Shown: piece by piece, positions 1-34,130 of the stretch
How the letters are laid out: each line of letters opens with the position of its first letter
How positions within the stretch are numbered: position 1 is the stretch's first letter
NCBI GenBank assembly: GCA_903837305.1
Contig: CAILUB010000179.1
Coordinates: 1 to 34,130 of the forward strand
Length of the DNA stretch: 34,130 bases
Reading direction: 5' to 3'
Origin: an uncultured Cytophagaceae bacterium
Lineage (GTDB): Bacteria > Bacteroidota > Bacteroidia > Cytophagales > Spirosomataceae
Notes under the pieces: model-generated
Database searches by the model: none
Told to the model about the DNA's origin: nothing
Seen by the model: the letters and a program-made list of their open reading frames with translations, nothing else
Made by a program: the position numbers and the translations under genes

Positions 1-376
1 GAATAAATCATATATACATAAATTATTTTTTTCAGCAGCTTGCTTTAACGTGATTGTTGCCCTTCCATCCCTTTTGTTTGTTGGACTCGCTTCTCAAATC
101 CTTTCTCTCGACCTGAATTCATCTGCTGCAACATTGTTTTATCAAATTACAATGCTTATCGTCGCTCTTTTTGGATGGGTTTATTTCAAGATAGCAGGTG
201 ATCCAGTTCAATACCGGCCATTTATCCTACTCGGGATATTAGCAAAATCAATTTTTGTGGTTGTGATTATGTGGCACTGGATCACAGGAAGTATTTCATG
301 GCCCTTGGCTGCATTAGTTTCTGTAGATTTGGTTTATGCAGTCTTATTCTTTCTTGTTTATCGACGAACAATGTAA
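1..376 (+). CDS. Small hydrophobic membrane protein, 5' end probably outside the window
   Basis: ORF 50..376 with several hydrophobic segments (e.g. MIVALPSLLFVGLASQIL, LIVALFGWVYF). The frame stays open upstream to the window edge (NKSYIHKLFFSAACFN...), so the GTG at 50 may not be the true start. Confidence 0.5.
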   Translation, partial: NKSYIHKLFFSAACFNVIVALPSLLFVGLASQILSLDLNSSAATLFYQITMLIVALFGWVYFKIAGDPVQYRPFILLGILAKSIFVVVIMWHWITGSISWPLAALVSVDLVYAVLFFLVYRRTM

Positions 377-509
377 AAGATTGTCTTATACGTCAACAAA
401 AATACCTTGCCTGATTCATTAATTAGAAGTCTATCAATCAGTAGTTTTCTGAGCTTTTTTAGTTTATTTAATTAATCCCTGAAACACATTAACTACCCAT
501 CTAGTGCAA

Positions 510-539
510 ACCCGTATTTAAAACTACCCATTAGGATAG
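510..539 (+). promoter_or_regulatory. Putative operator upstream of the carboxylase operon: ACCCGTATTTAAAACTACCCATTAGGATAG
   Basis: 26/30 positions identical to 10900..10929 upstream of the second transcription unit. A further AACTACCCAT copy lies at 491-500, 31 bp upstream of the copy at 522-531. Confidence 0.55.
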
Positions 540-585
540 TTTTGGGCGGGTGTCTCTTCATTACCATTTCAATAGGGTACGCGAT

Positions 586-607
586 AGCCGTTAAAAGACG
601 GTTTTTT
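586..607 (+). promoter_or_regulatory. Leader hairpin plus U-tract (possible attenuator) abutting the apcA Shine-Dalgarno
   Basis: AGCCGTTAAAAGACGGTTTTTT: CCGT/ACGG core stem extendable with G-U pairs, AAAA loop, then six T directly before AGGA. Confidence 0.35.
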
Positions 608-617
608 AGGAAATGGG

Positions 618-2594
618 TTGAATGTGAAAACAATAGTCGAAAAAAGCCAAAAAGATTTTAAGGTTAAAAAATTAATCAATATTGATAATGGTGGAACCTT
701 AACCGATCTTTGCATTATTGATGGTGAAAAGATTTATCGTACAAAAACAATAACAACCCCACATGACTTATCTCAGTGTATTTTTGATGGCCTAAAAAAA
801 GCTTCTGCATTGATTTATGGAGAAGTAGACTTACAGTCTCTTCTATTGTCGACAGAGGCAATTCGATACTCAACCACACAAGGAACGAATGCCCTAGTTG
901 AGCGTAAAGGTCCGAGGATTGGGCTCGTTCTTGGCGGCGGTCTAAGCGCTAAATCATTACAGGGGGATAAGTCAGCCAAGGATCTATTTCAAGCAATCGT
1001 AGGGAGTAGATACGTTGAGTTGGATAATGCTATTCCCTCAGAAGGCATCGCTAGTGAAGCCATTAAAGCGGTTAACGCCCTTGCGGCAGCTGGAGCAAAT
1101 CGAATTGTCATATCCTTTTCTGGCAGCAATAGGGTTGCAAGTGAAGCTAACGTTAAACGTCATTTGTTGCACGCTTTTCCGCCCCATCTTTTAGGGGCAT
1201 TACCATTGTTGTATGCGAGTGAGATAGCTGAAGATACTAATGATTTACGCCGAACCTGGACAGCAGTTTGCAATTCTTTCTTACATCCCGCAATGGAGAA
1301 GTTCTTGTATAACGCTGAGCACAAATTACGTGAAGAGCATACGCAAAGCCCTTTACTAATTTTTAGGAATGATGGAAACGCCGGAAGGGTGGCGCGAACT
1401 ATCGCTCTAAAAACATATAGCTCTGGACCGCGTGGCGGTATGGAGGGAGCTAAAGCACTAGCCAGGCATTATCAATTTAAAAAATTACTTTCAATGGATG
1501 TTGGCGGCACTACCACTGATATTGGAATCATTGAAAACGACGTCATTCGCTCAACTCTTCGGGGTCGCGTAGAAAATGTTGAAACCTCCTTTCCTTTATG
1601 TGATGTTGTTAGTGCTGGTGTGGGTGGTAGTTCAATCATTAAGGTAGTCGATGGTCAAATTAAAGTAGGTCCGGAAAGTGTGGGTAGTACTCCAGGGCCC
1701 GCCTGTTTTGGGTTGGGCGGAAAATTAGCAACTATTACTGATGCTTTTTTGCTAATGGGATTGTTAGATCCAAGCTCATTTTTTGGCGGTGATCTAAAGC
1801 TGGATATCGATCGTGCTAAAACTGCAATAACTGAAGCTATTGCAGTTCCTTTGGGAGTAAATTTAGAGAGCGCAATCCATGAGATGGAGAAGGCATGGGT
1901 TCATAAAATTGCCGAAAGTATTACTCGGTATACCGATGTCAAGGAAGACATGACATTGGCCGCATTTGGGGGCGGCGGACCTCTTGCAGCTTGTAAAGTG
2001 GCAGAGGCTATTAACATCAAAGAAATAACCATACCAAGTTTAGCTGCAGTCTTTTCTGCATTTGGAATTGGTTTCTCTGATATCGGGCATACTTTTTTGC
2101 AAAAATTGGAAGATTTTGACCAAAGCAGCATTAATTTAGCTAGAGTAAAAATAAAAGAAATTGCTTCAAGAGGAATGTTTTCTGAAGGTACCACTATTGA
2201 GAATTGCAAATTAGAGGAATGGATAGAAATTTGTACAAACGATGTGATTAAAAGTTATGCCCTTGGCAGCTCTGATATTCCTAAAAAGCTAACCGCAGGA
2301 GAAACTGCAACTTTATATCTCAAATCAACTAAGGCTGTTCCACACCCAGCTCTGAAAGGTTCCTTTAAGGAAAAATCAGCCTCGGCACTATCAACCTCCA
2401 CTAGAAAAGTTTTGATTGATGGCTCTCATCAGGACCTTCCTCTTTATTTGGTTGAGAAGCAAGTTGGAGCTGTTAAAGCGATGGGACCTGCAATTTTAGA
2501 AGAGTCCTTTTTCACATGTCGTGTAGATAAGGGTTGGAGTTTTTTCATCAATAACTCTGGTGATATTTTACTGACCAAAGTTGGAGAAAATTAA
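618..2594 (+). CDS. apcA: HyuA-family ketone carboxylase subunit, acetophenone carboxylase alpha (ApcA)-like
   Basis: 658 aa; hydantoinase/oxoprolinase nucleotide motifs (NIDNGGTLTD; SMDVGGTTTDIGII), STTQGTNALVERKGPRIGL, AAFGGGGPLAA. First gene of a set in apcABCDE order. TTG start at 618 or GTG at 624. Confidence 0.75.
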   Translation: MNVKTIVEKSQKDFKVKKLINIDNGGTLTDLCIIDGEKIYRTKTITTPHDLSQCIFDGLKKASALIYGEVDLQSLLLSTEAIRYSTTQGTNALVERKGPRIGLVLGGGLSAKSLQGDKSAKDLFQAIVGSRYVELDNAIPSEGIASEAIKAVNALAAAGANRIVISFSGSNRVASEANVKRHLLHAFPPHLLGALPLLYASEIAEDTNDLRRTWTAVCNSFLHPAMEKFLYNAEHKLREEHTQSPLLIFRNDGNAGRVARTIALKTYSSGPRGGMEGAKALARHYQFKKLLSMDVGGTTTDIGIIENDVIRSTLRGRVENVETSFPLCDVVSAGVGGSSIIKVVDGQIKVGPESVGSTPGPACFGLGGKLATITDAFLLMGLLDPSSFFGGDLKLDIDRAKTAITEAIAVPLGVNLESAIHEMEKAWVHKIAESITRYTDVKEDMTLAAFGGGGPLAACKVAEAINIKEITIPSLAAVFSAFGIGFSDIGHTFLQKLEDFDQSSINLARVKIKEIASRGMFSEGTTIENCKLEEWIEICTNDVIKSYALGSSDIPKKLTAGETATLYLKSTKAVPHPALKGSFKEKSASALSTSTRKVLIDGSHQDLPLYLVEKQVGAVKAMGPAILEESFFTCRVDKGWSFFINNSGDILLTKVGEN

Positions 2595-2595
2595 A

Positions 2596-3066
2596 ATGAA
2601 TGTGCTAATTACAGAATATTTACGTATCAACTTAGATACTGAAAAATGGGAGTGTCGCTGTTGTGGCAATGTTCATGGTAGTGCGCGAGATAACTATAAG
2701 CGTGGACTTTTAGTTTACGATCGTGATCCATCTGAAATACATAAGCCTTTGTTAGATATCAAGAAGTACGATAGAACTTATGCGCCTGATCCCACATGGT
2801 GCCGAATTCTTGAATATTACTGCCCAAGTTGCGGAGTAATGGTTGAGGCTGAATATCTTCCACCGGGTCATCCACCGGTCCGTGATATAGAGCTTGATAT
2901 TGATTCATTGAAATTGCAGTGGAAAGATAGGGAAGAGGTCAAGGAGTTGGTTTCAGCCCCTGATTTAGCACTTCAAAAAGTCAAGCTCCAGCGAGAAATT
3001 CATTCGAAAATTCATAACCATAGTCATGATGGTGAGCACGACCACAAAAATGGGAAAACATTATGA
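2596..3066 (+). CDS. apcB: Small zinc-binding subunit of acetone/acetophenone carboxylase (ApcB-like)
   Basis: ~156 aa; CRCCG and CPSCG Cys pairs; DPTWCRILEYYCPSCGVMVEAEYLPPGHPPVRDIELDI; His-rich C-terminus. ATG at 2596 preferred over the ORF-track start at 2581. Overlaps apcC by ATGA. Confidence 0.75.
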   Translation: MNVLITEYLRINLDTEKWECRCCGNVHGSARDNYKRGLLVYDRDPSEIHKPLLDIKKYDRTYAPDPTWCRILEYYCPSCGVMVEAEYLPPGHPPVRDIELDIDSLKLQWKDREEVKELVSAPDLALQKVKLQREIHSKIHNHSHDGEHDHKNGKTL

Positions 3067-5195
3067 AAAGGGTTTCAGTTGACATTGGTGGAACATTTAC
3101 CGATACTTTTGTAGCATGGGGCGACCAATATGTTGAAGGTAAATCACTTACTACACATCAAAATTTATCTTTAGGTTTTAATGATTCTCTGATTGATGCT
3201 TGCCAGCAATTGGGAATCGACGCGCATACTCTTTTGTCAGAAGTGGATTCAGTGCGTTATGCAACAACTTTAGGTACAAATGCGCTCATCGAGCATAAGG
3301 GACCTAGAGTAGGTTTGCTTGTCACCACCGGATTCAAACATACGATCCCATTGTCTCGAGCTCGCGGATACGGGGAGGGATTATCTGAGTCGGAGCAGAT
3401 GGATATACCAAATGCTCGTCGCCCAGACCCAATCGTTCCTATTCCAATGATTCGTGAAGTGCGTGAACGTACTGATTATCTTGGAGATATATTCTGGAAG
3501 CTGGATGAGGATGATGTCCGCTTAAGAATTCGAGAGTTGGTAGATATTGGGGCTGAGGCAATCGTTGTGATGTTCGTTAATAGTGTTGTAAATCCAAAGA
3601 ATGAGCTAAGAGTAAGGGAGATATTTTTAGAAGACTACCCGGCTCACCTTCTTGGCGCTATTCCAATGTTGTTATCACATCAAGTCGCGGGAAGAAAAGG
3701 CGAGTACGCACGAGCTACCTCGACTATTATTGATGCATTTTTACATCAAACCATGTATCACGGATTGGGGACTCTAGAGTTAAATCTACGTGCACAAGGT
3801 TATAGCAAACCAATGCAGGTGAACCATAATTCGGGCGGTATGGCACAGTTAAATTCTACTGACGCATTACAAACCGTACACTCAGGGCCAGTATCAGGTA
3901 TTGCTGCTAGCGAAAGCTTGGCTTATCAGGCAAATTTAGGCAATGTTGTTGCTACTGATATGGGTGGCACTAGCTTTGATATTGGAATTGTTGTTCAAGG
4001 TGGATTGAAGTATTACGACTTCAATCCAGTGATTGATCGTTGGTTGGTAAGTATTCCAATGGTTCATTTGGTATCGTTAGGCGCTGGTGGTGGATCCATT
4101 GCTCGATATGAACAAATGTATAAGACGTTGGAGATCGGACCACAATCTGCTGGATCTGACCCAGGACCAGCTTGTTATGACCGTGGTGGCATGAGGCCAA
4201 CTGTAACGGACGCAGATTTGTTGCTTGGTTATTTGGATGCAAAAAACTATGCAGACGGTCGTATTCCATTAAATCCTAGGCGATCGCGTCAAGCTGTTCA
4301 AGAGCACCTATGTGAAAACTTAGGTTTGGACGTCATTGAGTCAGCAAAACTGATTAAGCGTCAGGTTGACATCAATATGGCAAATGGAATTTCTACAGAA
4401 TTACGTACGCGTGGTTACGAGCCTAAAGATTTTACGATCTTAGCTTATGGTGGAAATGGGCCATTACATGCCTGTGGTATTGCTAACGCATTAGGAATTA
4501 GTAAGATTCTTGCGCCACCTTTTTCATCTACTTTTTCAGCATGTGGTGCTGGTAGCGTAAGTCAAATGCACATTCATGAAATGAGTACATGGGCAATACT
4601 ATTTAATTCGAATACAAAACAATTCTTTTCTGATTTTGATAACTTTAATAACAATGTAGAAACCTTAGAGCGTCGTGGAAAAGATGATTTATTGCGCCAA
4701 GGTATGGATCCTGCAGCAATAAAATTTAGGCTTGAGCTAGATATGCGCTATGGTAATCAGCGAGTTCAGACTGCAGTTATTAGCGATCTTTCACGGCTTA
4801 AAACTTTAAAAGATGTTCTTTCTCTTATGGATCAATTTCATAAGAGATATGGAGAGCGCTTTGGCGAGGGTAGCCAGTCGCCTGAAACCGGTGTCAGAAT
4901 TAATACCATACGCGTCTGCTCTTATGTAGAGCAACCAGCCGTTCAATTTACAAATTTACAGCCCAACGAGGTTCCGTTATCTGCGCCAGAACCAATCTCT
5001 CACAGAGAATGTCATTTCGTAGGCCATCCAGGACCCATCAATACTCCTGTTTATGGTGAAGATGCCAAGAAGGCCGGGGTAATGATTCACGGTCCTGCAA
5101 TTATTACGACTCGAGCAACAACTTATTTAGTAGAACCAGAATGGGTATATCACGCAGTAGCACAAGGTGCCGTCTGGTTTATGCGTGCCCATTAA
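3063..5195 (+). CDS. apcC: HyuA-family ketone carboxylase subunit, acetophenone carboxylase gamma (ApcC)-like
   Basis: 710 aa; VDIGGTFTDTFV, ATTLGTNALIEHKGPRVGLL, NSGGMAQL, VATDMGGTSFDIG, GAGGGSIAR, AYGGNGPLHACGIA. Confidence 0.8.
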   Translation: MKRVSVDIGGTFTDTFVAWGDQYVEGKSLTTHQNLSLGFNDSLIDACQQLGIDAHTLLSEVDSVRYATTLGTNALIEHKGPRVGLLVTTGFKHTIPLSRARGYGEGLSESEQMDIPNARRPDPIVPIPMIREVRERTDYLGDIFWKLDEDDVRLRIRELVDIGAEAIVVMFVNSVVNPKNELRVREIFLEDYPAHLLGAIPMLLSHQVAGRKGEYARATSTIIDAFLHQTMYHGLGTLELNLRAQGYSKPMQVNHNSGGMAQLNSTDALQTVHSGPVSGIAASESLAYQANLGNVVATDMGGTSFDIGIVVQGGLKYYDFNPVIDRWLVSIPMVHLVSLGAGGGSIARYEQMYKTLEIGPQSAGSDPGPACYDRGGMRPTVTDADLLLGYLDAKNYADGRIPLNPRRSRQAVQEHLCENLGLDVIESAKLIKRQVDINMANGISTELRTRGYEPKDFTILAYGGNGPLHACGIANALGISKILAPPFSSTFSACGAGSVSQMHIHEMSTWAILFNSNTKQFFSDFDNFNNNVETLERRGKDDLLRQGMDPAAIKFRLELDMRYGNQRVQTAVISDLSRLKTLKDVLSLMDQFHKRYGERFGEGSQSPETGVRINTIRVCSYVEQPAVQFTNLQPNEVPLSAPEPISHRECHFVGHPGPINTPVYGEDAKKAGVMIHGPAIITTRATTYLVEPEWVYHAVAQGAVWFMRAH

Positions 5196-5218
5196 CCTTG
5201 AAAGATTAGGAAAATTAT

Positions 5219-7474
5219 ATGCATGAAGTAATGAGTAAAGAAGACCAAGGTTTAATGGATAAGTTTTTAGCGGATAACACGCTATTTCTTGGTCCTGATC
5301 CAGAAATTATGCGTAATCATCAGTTGACGCCTAGATCTGCAATGGAAGAAGAGATTCTTCAAAAAGGTATAGATCCTCACCAAGTTCATCATATTCGTGG
5401 CCTATTAAATTCAGCACTAGGTGAATCGTTCACCATGGTTAATCAGATGGGCGCAGCCCCAGGTGCTAAGTGGGGGGATTTGGTAACTGGCATTTATACA
5501 GCTCAAGGCGATTTATCAATGATTGCGCCAAATGGAATTATTGCATTTGCGGCGTGCTGCTTTTATCCAATTCGCTTCATCATGAAAAATTGGGTGAATG
5601 ATCCTACGGTAGGCGTTAAAGAGGGTGATGGCTTCATTCACAATGATGCTCGATATGGCGGTATTCACAATACAGACCAGTCAATGATGATTCCTTTATT
5701 TTACAAAGGTGAATTAATTTGTTGGTTAAGTACAACTATTCATGAGGGCGAAAATGGCGCTTGTGAACCTGGCGGATTGCCAGCTTCAGCTGAAAGTAAA
5801 TATGATGAAGGCATTAAAATGTCTCCATTTAAGGTGGTGGAAAATTTCGAATTAAAACGTGACTTAGTTACCTTTCTTCAAAATTCAGTAAGAGATCCTC
5901 GTCTGCAGTTGGAGGATATGAAAGTGAAGCTGCATGCTGTTTTGCGTTTGAGGGAGCGGGTCCTTGCCATTCTAGATCAATTTGGTAGAGATGCCTTAGT
6001 CGGAACATTACGCCATCACCTTGAAGCGGTAGAAATTGAAATGCGTCGCCGAATTAGTGAAATGCCTGATGGTACAACTCGTGTTGTGCAGTTTATGGAT
6101 TCATCGCTACGAGAAAGCGCTCTTCAAAAGATTTCCTGCGCAATTACTGTCAAAGGCGATCGAATGATCATGGATTTCCGTGGATCTGCCCCTCAGTTCT
6201 TAAACAGATCAGTTAATGCAAATATTGCCTCATTTAAAGCTGCTCTGTGTACAGGACTTTTGCAAAATATTTGGCCTGATTTACCACATACTATGGCTGT
6301 ACTGTCACCCATTGAAATTATTACTGACAGAAACTCTATTTTAGACGCCGAAGGTGAAATGCCTCAAGCGATGAGTTTGATGCCTTTATTTAAGGGATGT
6401 GTAGTTTGGACTATTCCAATGAATAAGTTTAATTACAGTTTACCCAAAAGATATTCAGCTGTAATTGCATCACAATATGATCAGGCAGCTACATTTATTT
6501 ATGGTGGGCTAACACAGCACGGAGATATAACAGGAAACTTTTGCGCGGATATTAATGGTAATGGTCAGGGCGCAAGGAGTGATGCTGATGGTGAGCATTC
6601 GATTTCTCCAGTATTTGGATTCATGTGTGACACTGGTGAGCATGAGATTAGTGAGGAAGATACTCCAATTATTCGTCTCGGAGCACAGCGTCTTGCAAAG
6701 GATCGGATTGGCTGGGGTAAATATCGCGCCGGCATGGGATATGAGCAGATTGCTACTGCGCGTGGGTCTGGACTTTGGGGTTTCATGACTGGTTGTGAGG
6801 GATCTAAATTTCCTTCAGCACAAGGTCTTTTTGGAGGCTATTCGTGCCCAGCCTATCAATTGTTAAAAATTAAAGATATCAATATTTTTAAAGAATTAGA
6901 AAAGAACCCAAATGTGGTTGAAGTATTTGACATTGTTAAGTTAATGAACGAGCAACCAATCCCAAATGCAACTTACTCTAGTAATGATATGGGTATGACA
7001 TTTGAATTGTGTAACGAAGGTGAAATTTACATGATTTGCCAAGGTTCTGGTGGCGGATATGGCGACGTTCTCGAGCGGGATCCTAAGCTAGTCATGAAAG
7101 ACTTGTCTGAAGACCTTATGTCGCATGAAAATGCGAAAGATATTTATAAGGTTGTTTACGATGAGACGAGTTTAGTTGTAGATGAGCTTGCAACCTTGAA
7201 TCTGAGAGCGAGCTACCGGAAAGAGCGTATTGCGCGTGGCAAGCCTTTTGATCAATTCTGCGCTGAATGGGTTGAGCCTGAGCCACCTGTTAACTTGCCA
7301 TATTTTGGAAGTTGGGGCGATCCAAAGGTGATCTATGGAACTCATATTGGGCAGCGCATTGTCATGGATGGTGACAAGTTGCAAGGGATGTTCATGCTCA
7401 ATCCGAAGGATGTCAAGATTTCACAATTACAGGCAAAAATTAAAGAACTTGAGAAATCTGCCAAATCTAATTAA
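5219..7474 (+). CDS. apcD: HyuB-family ketone carboxylase subunit, acetophenone carboxylase delta (ApcD)-like
   Basis: 751 aa; hydantoinase B motifs (GDLVTGIYTAQGDLSMIAPNG, NDARYGGIHNTDQSMMIPLF, FRGSAPQFLNRSVNANIASFKAAL, GSGGGYGDVLERDP). Confidence 0.8.
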   Translation: MHEVMSKEDQGLMDKFLADNTLFLGPDPEIMRNHQLTPRSAMEEEILQKGIDPHQVHHIRGLLNSALGESFTMVNQMGAAPGAKWGDLVTGIYTAQGDLSMIAPNGIIAFAACCFYPIRFIMKNWVNDPTVGVKEGDGFIHNDARYGGIHNTDQSMMIPLFYKGELICWLSTTIHEGENGACEPGGLPASAESKYDEGIKMSPFKVVENFELKRDLVTFLQNSVRDPRLQLEDMKVKLHAVLRLRERVLAILDQFGRDALVGTLRHHLEAVEIEMRRRISEMPDGTTRVVQFMDSSLRESALQKISCAITVKGDRMIMDFRGSAPQFLNRSVNANIASFKAALCTGLLQNIWPDLPHTMAVLSPIEIITDRNSILDAEGEMPQAMSLMPLFKGCVVWTIPMNKFNYSLPKRYSAVIASQYDQAATFIYGGLTQHGDITGNFCADINGNGQGARSDADGEHSISPVFGFMCDTGEHEISEEDTPIIRLGAQRLAKDRIGWGKYRAGMGYEQIATARGSGLWGFMTGCEGSKFPSAQGLFGGYSCPAYQLLKIKDINIFKELEKNPNVVEVFDIVKLMNEQPIPNATYSSNDMGMTFELCNEGEIYMICQGSGGGYGDVLERDPKLVMKDLSEDLMSHENAKDIYKVVYDETSLVVDELATLNLRASYRKERIARGKPFDQFCAEWVEPEPPVNLPYFGSWGDPKVIYGTHIGQRIVMDGDKLQGMFMLNPKDVKISQLQAKIKELEKSAKSN

Positions 7475-7490
7475 TGCGAAAGTTAAGACC

Positions 7491-7632
7491 ATGGATTATC
7501 GAAAAGCTTTCTTCCTAGATGGAAAAGGTGATATTGGCGCTAAAAAAGTAGATACTTTATCTCAGGCCGGAGCATCAGTTTTGGCAACCGATATAGATGC
7601 CACTGTAGCGGAATCATTGGTAAAGAACATTT
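7491..7632 (+). pseudogene. N-terminal fragment of a short-chain dehydrogenase (remnant)
   Basis: MDYRKAFFLDGKGDIGAKKVDTLSQAGASVLATDIDATVAESLVKNI* aligns by eye with an SDR Rossmann start (TGxxxGIGxxxAxxLAxxGAxVxxxDID) with a damaged first Gly; truncated by a stop. The downstream codons AIGGEH still look SDR-like. Confidence 0.6.
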
Positions 7633-7650
7633 AGGCCATAGGTGGTGAAC

Positions 7651-8499
7651 ATGGCGCATGTTAACTTAGATGCAGCAGATGGCAGAAGGCTTCTGTGGAT
7701 TAACTACCTTGATTATGCAGGTAAATTACTTGCAGGCGGCAATATTCAATGGTTAGATATCGCTGAATGTCTTAACTGGTATCGCAAGGCTCAGGGGCTT
7801 CTAAAGTCTGATATTTTAAATATTGACATAAGTTACATTTGCACACAATTCATTGAATCCGATGCTGCCTTGCTTAACTTAATGCGAGGTAAGGACAAGT
7901 CTATTGCTCCTTTAAAGGAATTGCTTTCCTATCCCCCGCTGCGTGCTCATATTTCAGAATTGGTTATGGCGGCTAGGGCCACATTTCCAGATTTAATGTT
8001 AGCGCTTGTATGTCCAGCACCTGGAGAATGGGTTAAAACCACTTATTTAAAAGCTTTCCCTGAATCTTCTCAATTAGATATTGGTGAGGATGAGGTTGAT
8101 TATGGGGCGCTCTATACTGCGGATTTTTTACGTATTTTTTCAGGGGCAAATGTTGATTTACTATTGCTTGAGGATGGCAAATTGACAAAAGAGCATGCAG
8201 AAGAATTTATGCCTTGCTACCAAACTATTATGAATTTGGCTAATCAATATCGATGGCGCTTTGGAATCCAATTTTCAGAAATTGTCGACCGTGCCGAACT
8301 ACCTTTAGTTGATTTTATAGTGTCCAAAATAAGTCTTGATGGCCCAATTCATGCGTTAGAGTTGGATCAGAAATTTTGGGATAATCCATGTGGGGCAGAG
8401 CATTACAAAAGCCATTTTCTTTATGTTTCCATTCCCATCTCATGTGAGCCAGAAATTGTCCTCGATAGTTTGAACATGCTACGTAATAGTGCATCATAA
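7651..8499 (+). CDS. apcE: Acetophenone carboxylase epsilon (ApcE)-like subunit
   Basis: ~283 aa directly after apcD, the expected position and size of the fifth subunit. Segment WINYLDYAGKLLAGGNIQWLDIAECLNWYRKAQGLLKSD. ATG 7651 preceded by AGGTGG; the track start is GTG 7642. Confidence 0.6.
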   Translation: MAHVNLDAADGRRLLWINYLDYAGKLLAGGNIQWLDIAECLNWYRKAQGLLKSDILNIDISYICTQFIESDAALLNLMRGKDKSIAPLKELLSYPPLRAHISELVMAARATFPDLMLALVCPAPGEWVKTTYLKAFPESSQLDIGEDEVDYGALYTADFLRIFSGANVDLLLLEDGKLTKEHAEEFMPCYQTIMNLANQYRWRFGIQFSEIVDRAELPLVDFIVSKISLDGPIHALELDQKFWDNPCGAEHYKSHFLYVSIPISCEPEIVLDSLNMLRNSAS

Positions 8500-10898: not shown

Positions 10899-10950
10899 TA
10901 CCCGTAAATAAAACTACCCGTTTGGATAGGGGGGTAGTATTTTCTGGGTA
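10899..10950. promoter_or_regulatory. Putative divergent operator with four TACCC/GGGTA half-sites, containing the shared 30-bp motif (10900..10929)
   Basis: TACCC at 10899 and 10915, GGGTA at 10932 and 10946. TATAAAAT at 10949-10956 is a possible -10 on the + strand. Lies between the divergent thiolase and SDR pseudogene. Confidence 0.5.
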
Positions 10951-10995
10951 TAAAATTAATTAATTGCATTTATTCGCACCTTTTGTAAAAAAATT

Positions 10996-11772
10996 TTGAT
11001 GTTCAATTTGAGTGGACGGGTTGCATTCGTTACTGATGAAGTTAGTGAGATTGATTTGAATACCAATAATCTACTTGCTAAATCCGAAACAAAGGTAGTT
11101 TTTAAAGATATTAATCGGGGGAAAGGGGATCGCCCTTCAAGAGATCACAAATCTTTGATGTTTTTTCCTGAATTTATTCATTAAGATGTTACTGATGAAA
11201 AACGATTGGATGACGTCGTTGACTATATTGAATCTCGATTTGGAGGACTTGATCTCCTTGTTAAGGATGCAGGAATATTTTTAATTGGTTCTGTAGAGGT
11301 CATAACCTTAAAGAATTGGTAAAAGAGAATCGATTTAAATTTAAATAGCGTCTTTATGAGCACCAAGGCCGGCATCAAAGCAATGAAGAAATTTGGAGAA
11401 AGTATCATTAATGTTTGCTCAATTAAGGATATCGTAGATAAATTATTAATACCTTCCTGCAAGGCAAGCAAGGGCGGAGTAAGAATATTCAAAAAATTAG
11501 CAGCATGGCATTGCGCCGATCAAAACTATCCTGTTCGTATCAATTCTATTCATCCTGATTTTGTTATTAATTCTATGGTATCTGGCGCAATGACGATAGT
11601 GAGATCAAGCGAAGCAGAAGTCTTTGGAGCAAATGTAATGAACAGAATTTCTATTAAACGTTTTGTAACAGCAGATGAAATAGTATGTCCAATTTTATTT
11701 CTTGCATCAGAAGCATCAAGTTACATGACTGGATCTGAGTTGGTTGTTGATGGCGGAATGAAGGTAAGATAA
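10996..11772 (+). pseudogene. Decayed short-chain dehydrogenase gene
   Basis: Continuous frame with in-frame TAA at 11182-11184 and 11320-11322. SDR landmarks remain but are eroded (FVTDEVSEID; DVTDEKRLDDVVDYIESRFGGLDLLVKDAGIF; PSCKASKGGV in place of a Y-x-x-S-K motif; C-terminal FLASEASSYMTGSELVVDGGM intact). Confidence 0.85.
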
Positions 11773-11814: not shown

Positions 11815-12933
11815 ATGAGCAAACAGAAAGTAGTTGTATATGGAGCATCGGGCTATACAGGTAGATTGGTCTGTGAGTATTTGCGTGAATTAAACATCCC
11901 ATTTATTGCTGCCGGACGTAATGCTAAGCGAATTCAAGAAGTGATGAATTGCATACCTGGCATTGAAACAGCAAATTATAGAGTTGTAGAGGTTAAACAC
12001 GAAGTAGATGCCTTGGCCAAGCTGTTTGATCAAGCGGAGGTTGTCTGCAATATGGTTGGCCCGTTTATTAAGCTTGGCCAACAAGTTGTAGAAGCTTGTT
12101 TAAAGGCGAATTGTCACTATCTAGATACTACCGGTGAGCAGGACTGGCTCTTATATGCTCAATCTGAATGGGGTGATAAGTTTGCAAAACAAAAGTTGCT
12201 ACTATCACCTGGTATTGCTCATATGTACACAACTGGGGAGATCGCTGCAAATATTTGCCTTGAAACTCCAGGTGTTGATACTTTGGATATCTTAACTCTG
12301 TGGAAAGGACTTCCAACAATTTCTTCAACTCAAACAATTTTCACAATATTGAAGGCTAACTGGTACTACTTGGAGGAGAATAAGTTGGTAGAGTGGAAGC
12401 CAGGGCAATCTTATGAGGTCAATGTACCAGGCCAACATGAACAAACTCTTGTTTTGCCGTGGGGCGGCACAAGTCATCCCGTTTGGTTTGAAAAAGATCC
12501 CCGCGTTGCAACTTGTAAGGTTTTGGGAGGGGTATTTTCTCGAGAAGTCATGCAGGGCGTAATAGAAGCCCAAAAAATGATTGAAGATAAGATTAAAACT
12601 CTACCCTTGAGTGAGCAAGAGAACGCATTGTCTGCTATTGCTAGCTCAGTCCAAGGATCTATGCCTCCAAGGGAGAATCCTAGAATTAATAAGTCTGTAG
12701 ATTCGGTATACGCATCTGGGCCCTTGACACGAGTTCATTGCGTCATTTACGGAAATTGCAACTATAAGCAAACTGGATTACTTCAGGCTTATGCAGCACG
12801 ATCCTTGCTTATGGAAAAACCAAAACGTATTGGGCTCGCATCTGCTTGTCAAGCATTTGGACATAGAAATTTATTGGGTATTTTAAGAAATTTTGGATTA
12901 GTGATGAATCCAGTCGTGACGATACAAAATTGA
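11815..12933 (+). CDS. Saccharopine dehydrogenase-like NAD(P)-binding protein (trans-acting enoyl reductase-like)
   Basis: 372 aa; VVYGASGYTGRLVCEYL, AGRNAKRI, VVCNMVGPFIKLGQQVVEACLKANCHYLDTTGEQDW. Confidence 0.75.
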   Translation: MSKQKVVVYGASGYTGRLVCEYLRELNIPFIAAGRNAKRIQEVMNCIPGIETANYRVVEVKHEVDALAKLFDQAEVVCNMVGPFIKLGQQVVEACLKANCHYLDTTGEQDWLLYAQSEWGDKFAKQKLLLSPGIAHMYTTGEIAANICLETPGVDTLDILTLWKGLPTISSTQTIFTILKANWYYLEENKLVEWKPGQSYEVNVPGQHEQTLVLPWGGTSHPVWFEKDPRVATCKVLGGVFSREVMQGVIEAQKMIEDKIKTLPLSEQENALSAIASSVQGSMPPRENPRINKSVDSVYASGPLTRVHCVIYGNCNYKQTGLLQAYAARSLLMEKPKRIGLASACQAFGHRNLLGILRNFGLVMNPVVTIQN

Positions 12934-12959
12934 TGCAGTTTGCAAAGGGGTAATTCATA

Positions 12960-14492
12960 ATGCGGTTGACAGATTATTTAGACAAGGGCGCAATGCTAGG
13001 TGAAGAGCGGCCCTGCTTGACCATGCTTGACAAGACATTAAGTTATCTGCAAACGCAAAAGTTAAGCTATAAAATTGCCCGTGTTCTTCAGCTCCTAGGA
13101 GTTAAGCCAGGTTCCAAAGTGGCAATATTGTCAGCAAATGAGCCCACGGCTTTCGCCTGTGTTTTTGGTATTTCAAGAGCTGGTGCCGTTTGGTGTCCCA
13201 TCAACCCACGTAGTGAAGCCAATGAAAATAGTTTTGTTTTAAATGCTTTTGATTGTGAGTGCTTAATTTTTCAATCTTCCTTTGAAGTGCTCGTTGAAAA
13301 AATGCTCCCAGATTTACCAAATATGAAGACGTTAATTTGTCTAGATAAGAAATTATCTATAGCAACATCGTTATCTGAGTATATGAATACAGTTAGCGAT
13401 GAGCCAATCTTGATTAAACCTATTGATGATTTAGCGATGATCGCCGGAACTGGTGGGACTACAGGTCAACCTAAAGGTGTTATGTTGACTGGCAGAAATA
13501 TTGAAACAATGTCTGCTCTTACTTTAGTGGGGTTTCCATATGAAGGTCGTCCTGCATATTTAGCAATGACGCCATTAACTCATGCCGCAGGCGTTTTATG
13601 CTTTCCAATTATGTTACTCGGTGGGCGAATTGTAATGACAAGTAAGGCAGATTTGGGAGAGTATTTGCAACTAATTGAACAGTTCAAAATTACTCATTCT
13701 TTTTTGCCGCCCACTTTGATCTATATGTTGTTGCAGAGCCCATATTTATCTAAAACAGATACATCTAGTCTGCAATGTCTTTGGTATGGGGCTGCTCCAA
13801 TTTCGCCAGCCAGATTGGAGGAGGCAATCTTACGTTTGGGGCCAATTATGGGCCAATTTTTTGGTCAAACTGAGGCGCCAATGATGATTTCAATGATGTC
13901 ACCAAAAGATCACTTTAATGAGGATGGCAGCATCGCTAGGCATCGATTATCCTCTGCCGGAAAACCAAGCCCACTAGTTCAGGTGGCTGCTATGGATAAT
14001 GATGGTAAGTTGCTCGATATCGGCGAAAAAGGCGAAATCGTAGTTCGAGGTTCATTGGTGATGCCTGGATATTACAAAAATGAAAAGGCTACTGCAGAGT
14101 CCTCCATATTTGGATGGCATCACACTGGAGATATAGGATATATAGATAAAGAAGGTTATCTCTATATAGTGGATAGGGCAAAAGATATGATTATCACGGG
14201 TGGATTTAATGTCTACTCTGTAGAGGTGGAGCAGGCCTTAATGCAGCATCCCGGGGTACTTGATTGTGCAGTCGTTGGTATGCCAGACGAGAAGTGGGGG
14301 GAGAGAGTTGTTGCTGTACTGCAATTAAATCCAGATTGTAAAGATCATCCCGATAGCTTTAAGCAATTTGTCAAGGAGCTTATTGGCAGCGTTAAGGCTC
14401 CAAAGCAAATTGAGGTATGGTCTGATTTGCCTAAATCTAAAGTTGGAAAAGTTTTGAAAAAAGAAATTCGAGCAACTTTAATGGCAAATTAA
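12960..14492 (+). CDS. AMP-forming acyl-CoA ligase, candidate beta-keto acid:CoA ligase
   Basis: 510 aa; AGTGGTTGQPKGVMLT, YGAAPISPARL, GQTEAPMM, HHTGDIGYIDKEGYLYIVDRAKDMIITGGFNVYSVEVE, PKSKVGKVLKKEIR. Confidence 0.85.
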   Translation: MRLTDYLDKGAMLGEERPCLTMLDKTLSYLQTQKLSYKIARVLQLLGVKPGSKVAILSANEPTAFACVFGISRAGAVWCPINPRSEANENSFVLNAFDCECLIFQSSFEVLVEKMLPDLPNMKTLICLDKKLSIATSLSEYMNTVSDEPILIKPIDDLAMIAGTGGTTGQPKGVMLTGRNIETMSALTLVGFPYEGRPAYLAMTPLTHAAGVLCFPIMLLGGRIVMTSKADLGEYLQLIEQFKITHSFLPPTLIYMLLQSPYLSKTDTSSLQCLWYGAAPISPARLEEAILRLGPIMGQFFGQTEAPMMISMMSPKDHFNEDGSIARHRLSSAGKPSPLVQVAAMDNDGKLLDIGEKGEIVVRGSLVMPGYYKNEKATAESSIFGWHHTGDIGYIDKEGYLYIVDRAKDMIITGGFNVYSVEVEQALMQHPGVLDCAVVGMPDEKWGERVVAVLQLNPDCKDHPDSFKQFVKELIGSVKAPKQIEVWSDLPKSKVGKVLKKEIRATLMAN

Positions 14493-14556: not shown

Positions 14557-17289
14557 TTGATGAAGCTGGAATTAGGAAATACCGATGAAATTCTGTCGCA
14601 TAAATTATTTCCACCAGTAAGTTATGGAGGGGCAATTTTAAGAAAAAGACTGTTAGATGACGTTATTAACCGCCCTGAAGGTACTAGGGGGGTTATTTTC
14701 CAGGCTCCCGCTGGATTCGGTAAGACCACAAGTCTTCAGCAAGCCATGGAAGCTTTTAAGAATAGAGGATGGAACTCGGGTTGGTTATCGTGTGACGAAG
14801 GTGATAATGACCCCCAGAGATTTCAGCTTCACGTACAAGCCTTACTTTCACCCAACAATATTTTCAGCGGCTCAGAAAATACCAACGACACTTCATTGAT
14901 AAGGCTTGCAGAGTCTATTTTGCATGGTTTTTTAAATACTAAAACACCTACTATTTTATTATTTGATGAGTTTCAAGCTATTCATAACGAGTCAGTAAAA
15001 AACTTCTTTAAATTTATTTTGCCAAGATTACCGAAGCATGTTTTAATTTTCATAGGTACGCGAACTGAACCAGATATTGGGCTCTCCACTCTTTTAGCGC
15101 ACCAGGTGGTGATATTGTTTCAATCAGACTATCTCAAGTTTTCGGATGAGGAAGTTCAGGATTTCTTTTTACGTTCAAATAATTTAGAAATGAGCAAAGA
15201 AGAGGTTGAGGCAATTAATTCCCATGCTCAGGGTTGGCCTGCAGCACTTCAACTATTTCGCTTAGCATTAAAAAATCCTGATGTACGGTCATCGCTTTCC
15301 AAGTTAGATTTAAATACTCCTAGAACCTTAACAGAGTATTTAGCTGACAATATTCTCAGCGGCCAACCAAAAAATATACAAGAATTTCTCATTAAAACTT
15401 CAATCCTTAGAAAGATGTCTGGCGACTTATGTGACTTTGTCACTGGAATAGAAAATTCTCAAAAAATATTGGATCTTTTGGAAAAGGGCGGGCTGTTTAT
15501 TTCATCAATTGGTTGCGATAACTATTGGTTTAAGTACCACAGCTTGTTTTCATCATTCTTAAAAAGCATCTTAGAGGAATCTTATGCAATTCAGATTCCT
15601 AAAATTCATAATCAAGCGGCAAAATGGTTTTTTGAACAGAATATGCATGAAGATGCGCTTCATCATGCTTTGGCAGCGGGAGAGCATGCATTCGCAGCAG
15701 AGATCTTGAATGATTGGGGCTCAGATTTAGTTATTAATATAAATTTAGTTACCATGGAGCGCTGGTATGATCGCATTCCATTTGAGCAAATTCAAACTCG
15801 AATGGACTTAGCAATAAAGTCTGCCTATGCTCTTCTTTTTTTACGACGTCGCGATAAATTAATCCAGTTAGTTGATTTATTGAAAACAACAAGACAACAA
15901 ATTCCTCTTGAATGCAATCAACCAATTCGGCAAAATTTATTTCTAGCAATGGCCAAACTATTTGACGATGATTTGCCTGCATCTATGGTCATTTTGGAGG
16001 AATCAAAAATCCTAGAATTACCGTTACCGCAAGGTTTTGCAGCGTTTGAACTAGCAGCAGCGGCTAATTTATACGCATTCGGAAAGCTATTAAAGGGAGA
16101 TTTTGAGGGTGTTCGAATATCACTTTTATTAGCAAAGAATTGTGCAAGTCAAATTAGATCATCCTTTAGTAATGGGTATACCTTGGCTGTTGAGTGTATT
16201 TCTCTAATTATTCAAGGCAGGCTAAAGGAGGTAACTGGTATTTTCGGCTCGTCAGAAGCTATCTTTAGGAATCAAAAATTTAATAATATAGAAATCAAAA
16301 CTCCAGCAGCGTTAGCAGTATGTCAAATTTGGACTTTATATGAATCAAATCAAATTGGTGCGGCTTGTAGTATATGGTCCCGCTATGAGGAGGAGATCAC
16401 AAGTGCTTTGGTTCCTGACTTCATGGCTATTGGACATATATTTGCCTCTCGTGCATATTTTTTGAGAGGGGAGTTAGGTAAGGCAAATGCTATTTTAGAT
16501 TCACTTGAGCGCATAAGTCATTCAAGCCAGTGGGGACGAATCGTTAATTTGGTTAATTTAGAGCGAATTAGGATTTCATTTTTAAGCAATCCCTCACTCG
16601 CAAATCATCAAATTATGCTGTCGCGAATTAAGAAAAGGCATTGCGTGGATGAGTATTTTCCTTTATCCGAATTCATATGTAGCGAGATTTACATTTCAAT
16701 TAAATTGTTAATTCAATCCCGCGATTTTATTTCCGCAAAGAAGATTATTACAAGCGAGATTTCAAATTTTCAAGGTAGAACTTATCTCATCATTAAATTG
16801 CAGATATTAAATTCTCTATTAGAGAATGCTAAGCTGAATCATCGAGAAGCGAAAAGAATTTTAAGTCAGGCTCTTCGTATGGCTCATACGGGGGGCTATG
16901 TGCGCTCCTTTCTTGATGAAGGCCCTGAAATTATCAGCTTAATAGCTGAAATATATGACTCTGCAAAGGTAGCCACCTCTGAGGATAATTCTATAAATAT
17001 TGAATACAATAATTTTTTAAGGAGATTGCTGGTTGATGCAGGGGCCGACGTAAATGAGTCCAGCTTTAGTCAGCCTTCTGTAGAAAAACTTGATCTCCAC
17101 TTCTCCAATCGCCAACTAGAAATTGTTAAATTATTAGTAGATGGAAAATCAAATAAAGAAATCGCAGCATGTATGTTTATTTCAGAAAATACTGTTAAGT
17201 TTCACTTGAAAAACATATTTAGTGAGCTGAACATAAGCAATAGATCACAAGCCATTAAAGTCGCTAAAGAGCAGAATCTGATTAATTAA
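14557..17289 (+). CDS. MalT/LAL-type (ATP-dependent) LuxR-family transcriptional activator
   Basis: 910 aa; Walker A APAGFGKTTS, ILLFDEFQ Walker B, C-terminal LuxR HTH (LSNRQLEIVKLLVDGKSNKEIAACMFISENTVKFHLKNIFSELNISNRSQAI; reading LHFSNRQLEIV at its start). Confidence 0.85.
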   Translation: MMKLELGNTDEILSHKLFPPVSYGGAILRKRLLDDVINRPEGTRGVIFQAPAGFGKTTSLQQAMEAFKNRGWNSGWLSCDEGDNDPQRFQLHVQALLSPNNIFSGSENTNDTSLIRLAESILHGFLNTKTPTILLFDEFQAIHNESVKNFFKFILPRLPKHVLIFIGTRTEPDIGLSTLLAHQVVILFQSDYLKFSDEEVQDFFLRSNNLEMSKEEVEAINSHAQGWPAALQLFRLALKNPDVRSSLSKLDLNTPRTLTEYLADNILSGQPKNIQEFLIKTSILRKMSGDLCDFVTGIENSQKILDLLEKGGLFISSIGCDNYWFKYHSLFSSFLKSILEESYAIQIPKIHNQAAKWFFEQNMHEDALHHALAAGEHAFAAEILNDWGSDLVININLVTMERWYDRIPFEQIQTRMDLAIKSAYALLFLRRRDKLIQLVDLLKTTRQQIPLECNQPIRQNLFLAMAKLFDDDLPASMVILEESKILELPLPQGFAAFELAAAANLYAFGKLLKGDFEGVRISLLLAKNCASQIRSSFSNGYTLAVECISLIIQGRLKEVTGIFGSSEAIFRNQKFNNIEIKTPAALAVCQIWTLYESNQIGAACSIWSRYEEEITSALVPDFMAIGHIFASRAYFLRGELGKANAILDSLERISHSSQWGRIVNLVNLERIRISFLSNPSLANHQIMLSRIKKRHCVDEYFPLSEFICSEIYISIKLLIQSRDFISAKKIITSEISNFQGRTYLIIKLQILNSLLENAKLNHREAKRILSQALRMAHTGGYVRSFLDEGPEIISLIAEIYDSAKVATSEDNSINIEYNNFLRRLLVDAGADVNESSFSQPSVEKLDLHFSNRQLEIVKLLVDGKSNKEIAACMFISENTVKFHLKNIFSELNISNRSQAIKVAKEQNLIN

Positions 17290-32985: not shown

Positions 32986-33918
32986 ATGATTAGTTCTCCA
33001 TACTTACCTAAAAAAGTAAAGATAGTCGAGGTAGGGCCTCGCGATGGTTTGCAGAATGAGAAAACATTCGTAGCAAATGAGGTAAAGATTTCCCTGATTA
33101 ACCAATTATCATCAGCTGGATTTTCCAATATTGAGGCAGCTGCTTTTGTATCGCCAAAATGGATTCCGCAAATGGCGAGTAGTGAAATTGTGATGGCTGG
33201 TATTGATCGGATGCCAGGCACAATTTATTCAGTATTAGTTCCCAATCTTCAAGGATTTGAAAAGGCACTAGCTTCTCGCGCCAATGAGATTGTCATTTTT
33301 GGAGCTGCATCGGAGACTTTTTCTCAAAAGAACATTAATTGTAGTATCGCAGAATCTATTGAACGTTTTGCACCTGTTACAAAAGCAGCTTTGGATCATA
33401 ATATTCGAGTACGTGGAAGTATTTCTTGCGCCATGGGCTGTCCTTTTGAGGGCAATATTGATCCTGCGAAAGTAGGGGAGGTGGTCCGACTGATGGCAGA
33501 CCTAGGATGCGCGGAAATTGATATCGCCGACACGATCGGCATTGGAACTCCAAACAAAATTAAAGCAGTTTTCGAGCATATTGGCCAGATATTGCCAATG
33601 AGTACCTATTCTGGACACTTTCATGATACTTATGGCCAGTCTCTGGCAAATATCTATGCGGCCATGGAAATGGGTGTGAGTACCTTTCATTCATCAGTAG
33701 CTGGCTTGGGTGGTTGCCCTTATGCACAAGGGGCAACTGGTAATGTTGCAACTGAAGATGTTCTTTATCTACTTGCTGGGCTTGGGATTGAAACGGGTAT
33801 AGATTTTGAATTGGTAGTGCGAAGTGGTAACTATATCTCTAATGTTCTCAATCGACCAAATGGATCAAAAGCTGGTCGTGCTTTTTTAGCAAAGGTAGCT
33901 TTGAGTGCTGGAGATTGA
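32986..33918 (+). CDS. liuE: Hydroxymethylglutaryl-CoA lyase
   Basis: 310 aa; VKIVEVGPRDGLQNEK, SCAMGCPFEG, HFHDTYGQSLANIYAAMEMGVSTFHSSVAGLGGCPYAQGATGNVATEDVLYLL. Confidence 0.92.
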   Translation: MISSPYLPKKVKIVEVGPRDGLQNEKTFVANEVKISLINQLSSAGFSNIEAAAFVSPKWIPQMASSEIVMAGIDRMPGTIYSVLVPNLQGFEKALASRANEIVIFGAASETFSQKNINCSIAESIERFAPVTKAALDHNIRVRGSISCAMGCPFEGNIDPAKVGEVVRLMADLGCAEIDIADTIGIGTPNKIKAVFEHIGQILPMSTYSGHFHDTYGQSLANIYAAMEMGVSTFHSSVAGLGGCPYAQGATGNVATEDVLYLLAGLGIETGIDFELVVRSGNYISNVLNRPNGSKAGRAFLAKVALSAGD

Positions 33919-34120
33919 CTTATCTAACACCAATCCCTAAAATAAATTTAAAAGCATAATGTTTAAAGCTAATGAATGAAGTCTGTAGCGGTAGAACATA
34001 CAATTGCGTCATGCATGTCACTTCGAGCACTTATTAAAGACCTCTTTCCAAAGGCATAGATTCTTAAATCTATAGGATAGCAAGTTTTCAGAGGCTAGTA
34101 TTTATAATAAATCCACGTCC

Positions 34121-34130
34121 TGGTGGGTCC
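34121..34130 (-). tRNA. Possible 3' end of a minus-strand tRNA truncated by the window edge
   Basis: The last 10 nt, TGGTGGGTCC, reverse-complement to GGACCCACCA, the form of an acceptor strand + discriminator A + CCA. Only 10 nt visible. Confidence 0.3.

Follow-up and report, generated by a model that had tools for sequence, protein, structure and literature searches.

A Palindromic Repeat as Candidate Operator of a LAL-Type Regulator in an Acetophenone Carboxylase-Like Gene Cluster

Gene Content of the Window

The window, i.e., the whole stretch of 34,130 nucleotides that was analysed, carries a five-gene operon related to ketone carboxylase genes and a second unit followed by the gene of a LAL (MalT-type) regulator. 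The main genes are the following, operators 1 and 2 being the two putative binding sites described below.

618 to 8499, + strand: apc-like operon encoding ApcA-, ApcB-, ApcC- and ApcD-like proteins and a fifth subunit of 285 aa
9571 to 10755, - strand: thiolase/lipid-transfer protein gene, divergent from operator 2
10999 to 11772, + strand: SDR pseudogene, interrupted by two in-frame stops and placed first after operator 2
11815 to 14492, + strand: genes of a 372-aa dehydrogenase-like protein and a 510-aa AMP-binding CoA ligase (unit 2)
14557 to 17289, + strand: gene of the 910-aa LAL (MalT-type) regulator, candidate binder of both operators
17182 to 17211, + strand: codons of the HTH recognition helix SENTVKFHLK (position counted from the protein alignment)

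The ApcA, ApcB, ApcC and ApcD models are the best matches to genes 1 to 4 of the operon, in this order, and a fifth gene of similar size comes next; a subunit set matching ApcA-E is found in one operon. The scores lie below the curated equivalog cut-offs for ApcA (326 bits for a cut-off of 1250), ApcB (133 for 250), ApcC (522 for 1500) and ApcD (298 for 1500), and the best solved relative of these subunits is 5l9w. Judged by these matches, they belong to the acetophenone carboxylase group, as relatives rather than curated equivalogs.

The 910-aa protein has the layout of the LAL family, namely about 900 aa, a MalT-like N-terminal ATPase, a TPR region and a C-terminal GerE HTH. Pfam domains are found at residues 849-903 (GerE) and 635-798 (TPR_MalT), with an NTPase match at 30-83, and residues 13-415 match the MalT structure 8bob (E 3e-47). 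With 322 bits for a cut-off of 537, the protein falls below the NCBIfam MalT equivalog.

Origin of the Contig

The tetranucleotide profile of the window correlates at 0.85 with a metagenome-assembled genome (MAG) of Polynucleobacter meluiroseus (G913) and at 0.60 with its own bin (G000), whose other contigs encode SusC/TonB-type proteins (judged by eye) and look like Bacteroidota. On the evidence of its sequence, the contig is misbinned, i.e., betaproteobacterial, near Polynucleobacter, inside a Bacteroidota bin. Orthologues were not found in the genome of bin G000 or in its genus, family, order or class; since the bin is Bacteroidota and the contig foreign to it, these searches are uninformative about conservation. 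The genome searches were therefore re-centred on the P. meluiroseus MAG to find relatives.

Positions 1-658 of the window are 97.7% identical to a contig of this MAG, L006, one related match found, beside six others, by an exact-pattern scan of genome contigs. Positions 131-1269 of L006 align to window positions 1-658 and 33651-34128, so that position 658 is joined straight to 33651 and the 33-kb cluster is missing. The promoter that bears the motif described below is thereby left as an orphan in L006. At this junction, the left flank and the motif meet the end of an hmgL-like gene, and identity falls from 97.7% to 87%. This arrangement is either a 33-kb deletion or an assembly join.

A Palindromic Element Present Twice in Non-Coding DNA

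The initial annotation had reported a 30-bp motif at positions 510-539 and 10900-10929, in non-coding DNA, too similar for chance. All of this was found to be right: the copies are identical at 26 of 30 positions, neither overlaps a coding region, the two point the same way, and no such pair is expected by chance (none in 100 dinucleotide shuffles). When the main intergenic stretches are compared, no other 30-bp match comes near this one, the next unrelated pair reaching 22/30, and a scan of the 34-kb window with the joint 30-bp pattern (up to 3 mismatches) retrieves these two positions only. Outside the 30 bp, identity between the copies falls to 21/60 upstream and 15/60 downstream. Since it ends at the edges of the motif, a short element rather than a duplicated promoter region is conserved.

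The 30-bp element holds a 16-bp inverted repeat, CTACCC-N4-GGATAG, which the initial annotation had not described. The sequence CTACCCNNNNGGGTAG occurs in the window, with up to 2 mismatches, only at 524-539 and 10914-10929. Operators 1 and 2 lie about 80 bp and 70 bp, respectively, before the next start codon of the + strand, which for operator 2 is that of the SDR pseudogene. The features around the two sites are listed below.

491 to 504, + strand: possible extra weak site AACTACCCATCTAG, 5' of operator 1
510 to 523, + strand: upstream arm of repeat 1, ACCCGTATTTAAAA, conserved within the genome
524 to 539, + strand: putative operator 1 core, inverted repeat CTACCC-ATTA-GGATAG, 5' of the apc-like operon, with an equivalent at apc1 in seven related loci
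562 to 567, + strand: -10-like hexamer TACCAT, 22 nt after operator 1, at the offset of TACACT/TAGACT/TAAACT in relatives
10900 to 10913, + strand: upstream arm of repeat 2, ACCCGTAAATAAAA
10914 to 10929, + strand: putative operator 2 core, inverted repeat CTACCC-GTTT-GGATAG, 5' of the SDR/ligase/LAL unit
10951 to 10956, + strand: -10-like hexamer TAAAAT, 21 nt after operator 2

The third AACTACCC, at 491, is suggestive but shows no conservation in the related loci. A BLAST search of plasmids with the promoter DNA returned chance matches only.

Conservation of the Palindrome in Related Loci

The first useful relative is plasmid pBB1 of Cupriavidus necator N-1 (L049), which has a similar arrangement and where identity to the proteins of the window is 84% for the ApcD-like protein and 32% for the LAL. 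The SDR counterpart in pBB1 (L049 11029-11805), related to the pseudogene of the window, is intact. The carboxylase was found in none of the 120 Polynucleobacter genomes searched. It is carried by six of 300 Burkholderiaceae genomes, with ApcD-like proteins 83-85% identical; two more of these genomes have more distant relatives, 50% identical in one (G1299) and 28% in the other. In all six genomes and in pBB1, apc1-5 are followed by a LAL gene of the same strand, whose product is 31-33% identical to that of the window.

The palindrome CTACCC-N4-GGGTGG lies 5' of apc1 in all seven related loci. A second copy is found in six of them, 0.9-2.3 kb farther upstream, and is a perfect CTACCC-N4-GGGTAG in five. 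In five loci this second copy precedes a porin gene (Pfam assigns the G1272 protein to PF13609, and those of G1279, G1275, G1259 and G1158 resemble it by eye), an SDR gene usually coming next; in pBB1 it directly precedes the SDR gene. The seven loci thus hold 13 sites, with no others at up to 2 mismatches in the 28-40 kb covered per locus, and Markov-shuffled sequence yields about 0 sites at up to 1 mismatch. In the seven apc1 promoters, which come from loci related to one another and hence are not independent samples, the arms of the palindrome are 100% identical and the other flanking stretches 31-44%.

Loss of the motif from orthologous islands, or its occurrence at many unrelated loci, had been named in the initial annotation as evidence that would speak against shared control. 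Neither was seen: every orthologous cluster found with this LAL has the palindrome, and the single perfect palindrome in the whole 1.5-Mb pBB1 is the copy in the apc cluster.

The apc1 promoters of the relatives share a second conserved element, CGGGSAATCCAT, which is about 85% identical among them and precedes the palindrome by about 20 bp; the window has a different upstream sequence at this position. This element (GATnCGGGSAATCCAT) is seen 5' of the L049 sites 2978 and 3922 and has equivalents in the six other related loci. It may be another contact of the regulator.

The LAL Protein as Candidate Regulator

The proposal that one regulator controls both units, the LAL encoded at 14557 being the natural candidate, is supported by the co-occurrence of site and LAL gene among the sequences compared. 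Indeed, apc-type operons that lack this LAL, i.e., those of R. jostii RHA1, Neorhizobium, R. qingshengii, Rhodococcus sp. BH4 and G1299, have no palindrome at up to 1 mismatch. Furthermore, the recognition helix SENTVKFHLK is common to all eight linked LALs (window and seven loci) and absent from 15 other LALs, which come from G1299, Cupriavidus, Burkholderia, Pseudomonas, Bradyrhizobium, Phytobacter and Bacteroidota and include the second LAL of pBB1. The palindrome was not found, at up to 1 mismatch, in the 14 other loci holding these LALs. Fisher values computed for this association are given no weight, since they come out too strong for loci that share ancestry and had the second LAL of pBB1 entered as a locus of its own. 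The second pBB1 LAL (L049 29231-31927), with the helix SETTVKTHLR, is encoded about 14 kb downstream, beside fatty-acid-type genes. Two points count against assigning the sites to the LAL: the LAL of the window is only 31-33% identical overall to those of the relatives, and the sites of the window carry GGATAG, not GGGTAG, together with a different upstream element.

Palindromic binding sites close to the regulator's own gene are known for many TetR and MerR proteins. As a TetR gene (21550) and a MerR-type gene (26724) both lie within the window, the palindrome could be the shared operator of one of these proteins, or of a regulator encoded elsewhere, the LAL being a mere neighbour. This appears unlikely: neither gene could be matched in the seven related loci, all of which have the LAL, the only regulator of the window with a counterpart there, and the palindrome tracks the recognition helix of the LAL.

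Promoter Architecture and Proposed Mechanism

Each of the 15 sites, the two of the window among them, is followed at a distance of 21-23 nt by a TAnnnT hexamer, which reads TACACT, TAGACT or TAAACT in the relatives. Taking this hexamer as the -10 box would put the centre of the palindrome at about -41.5 to -43.5, the position of a class II activator. Operator 1 was found to lack a consensus sigma-70 -35/-10 pair, which fits an activator-dependent promoter. The layout is that of class II LuxR-type promoters, namely an inverted repeat at a fixed distance from a -10-like box and overlapping the presumed -35, the transcription start being deduced from the hexamer.

Taken together, these features point with good confidence to the palindrome as the operator of a pathway-specific LAL activator at two promoters, that of the apc-like operon and that of the SDR/CoA-ligase/LAL unit. 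The 910-aa LAL, once activated, would bind the 6-4-6 repeat as a dimer of its C-terminal LuxR-type HTH. By analogy with MalT, activation could involve ATP and an inducer. Ketones and CoA intermediates come into question as inducers, a ketone or the CoA ester derived from it being the probable one. The bound LAL would recruit RNA polymerase, in a class II manner, to the promoter of the carboxylase operon and would also switch on the SDR/CoA-ligase/LAL unit, hence a positive feedback onto its own gene. Such positive autoregulation is likely because a promoter bearing the site lies upstream of the LAL gene and reads in its direction; this promoter is that of unit 2 in the window and that of the apc unit in the relatives. 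Binding, activation as opposed to repression, ligand and autoregulation are all things that we infer from sequence, and activation as the direction of control is assumed from the position of the site.

With somewhat less confidence, though still on the favourable side, the linked LALs could form a distinct subfamily, marked by the helix SENTVKFHLK, whose operator is a strict palindrome accompanied by a second conserved upstream element, and which would exert a ketone-responsive control over the uptake porin, the carboxylase, the CoA ligase and itself.

The LAL could also bind the site and repress, or the site could serve the divergent thiolase gene as well, so that control would differ from the class II model. 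Repressors too bind over the -35, which the site is presumed to overlap, site 2 sits between divergent genes, and the Streptomyces LAL SCO6993 is a repressor (PMC9628970). However, the lack of a consensus -35 at operator 1 and the fixed 21-23 nt to the -10-like box suit an activator, and PAS-LuxR sites of equal layout are found at the -35 of regulated promoters (PMC9774167). Repression or service to the thiolase gene is rather improbable, and activation by the LAL is preferred.

It is very doubtful that the palindromes act at the RNA level, as transcription terminators or other stem-loops: read on the minus strand, site 2 runs into TTTTATTT and has a terminator-like score, but site 1 has not, no T runs follow the related sites, the arms are fixed in sequence and not just paired, and the -10-like box at a fixed distance points to a promoter element. 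Chance similarity, or recent copying of one promoter onto the other, can practically be dismissed: this genome has two copies only and their similarity is limited to 30 bp, but none is expected by chance, the flanks are unrelated, and the paired arrangement recurs in other genomes, so that the cross-genome footprint contradicts it.

Comparison with Known Systems

The LAL had first been favoured on the grounds that MalT-like proteins bind G-rich asymmetric boxes. This rationale does not stand, as two-fold symmetry marks the conserved element, a 6-4-6 palindrome. The MalT box is a short asymmetric GGA[TG]GA (PMC9628970). Such units are not what is found here, the element being a symmetric CTACCC-N4-GGGTAG; the LAL of the window resembles MalT in its N-terminal region, whereas the operators differ.

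Another regulator to be considered is AlkS, the MalT/LAL-type activator of the alkane operon of Pseudomonas putida. AlkS binds an inverted repeat upstream of the -35 of PalkB, a promoter that it activates (PMC12740625). The two systems, compared by description and not by sequence, have in common a catabolic LAL-type activator and an inverted repeat near the -35, but belong to different pathways.

PAS-LuxR regulators of the PimM type bind CTVGGGAWWTCCCBAG in the -35 region (PMC9774167). Their operators, like those proposed here, are 16-bp 6-4-6 palindromes with CT...AG ends, located in the -35 region and read by a LuxR-type HTH. However, the order of the arms is GGG/CCC instead of CCC/GGG, and the protein is a PAS sensor of Streptomyces and not a LAL. 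Footprinting showed SCO6993 to bind palindromic sequences, with a consensus that could not be predicted (PMC9628970). It is comparable in that a LAL acts on a palindromic sequence, binding by the LAL of the window being predicted, but it is a repressor without a definable consensus, whereas the consensus is strict here.

Concerning the pathway, induction of the apcABCDE-bal operon of Aromatoleum aromaticum was assigned to a predicted two-component system, adiRS (PMC4729919). This operon also associates a five-subunit ketone carboxylase with a CoA ligase. The two differ in that the candidate regulator here is a LAL, and in that the subunits of the window are far below the ApcA-D cut-offs.

As far as these comparisons go, the candidate LAL-operator pair is new and the kind of gene control, a LuxR-type HTH operator layout, is familiar. 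Acetone or acetophenone carboxylase operons tied to such regulation were not found in the literature searched, which covered few subscription journals. If the proposed control is true, this operator would be the first to be defined for an ATP-dependent ketone carboxylase under LAL control, and the LAL family, where consensus sites can be hard to define, would gain an unusually clean candidate regulator-operator pair. The pair would supply a candidate promoter responsive to ketones and a way to approach the inducer and the true substrate of apc-like carboxylases. It lends itself to direct tests in a named strain, Cupriavidus necator N-1.

Elsewhere, a LAL gene from Bacteroidota (contig L076) is flanked, in a similar context, by two perfect palindromes, CTCCCC-N4-GGGGAG (5407 and 11561). 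These are possibly the own operator pair of that LAL, or a repeat.
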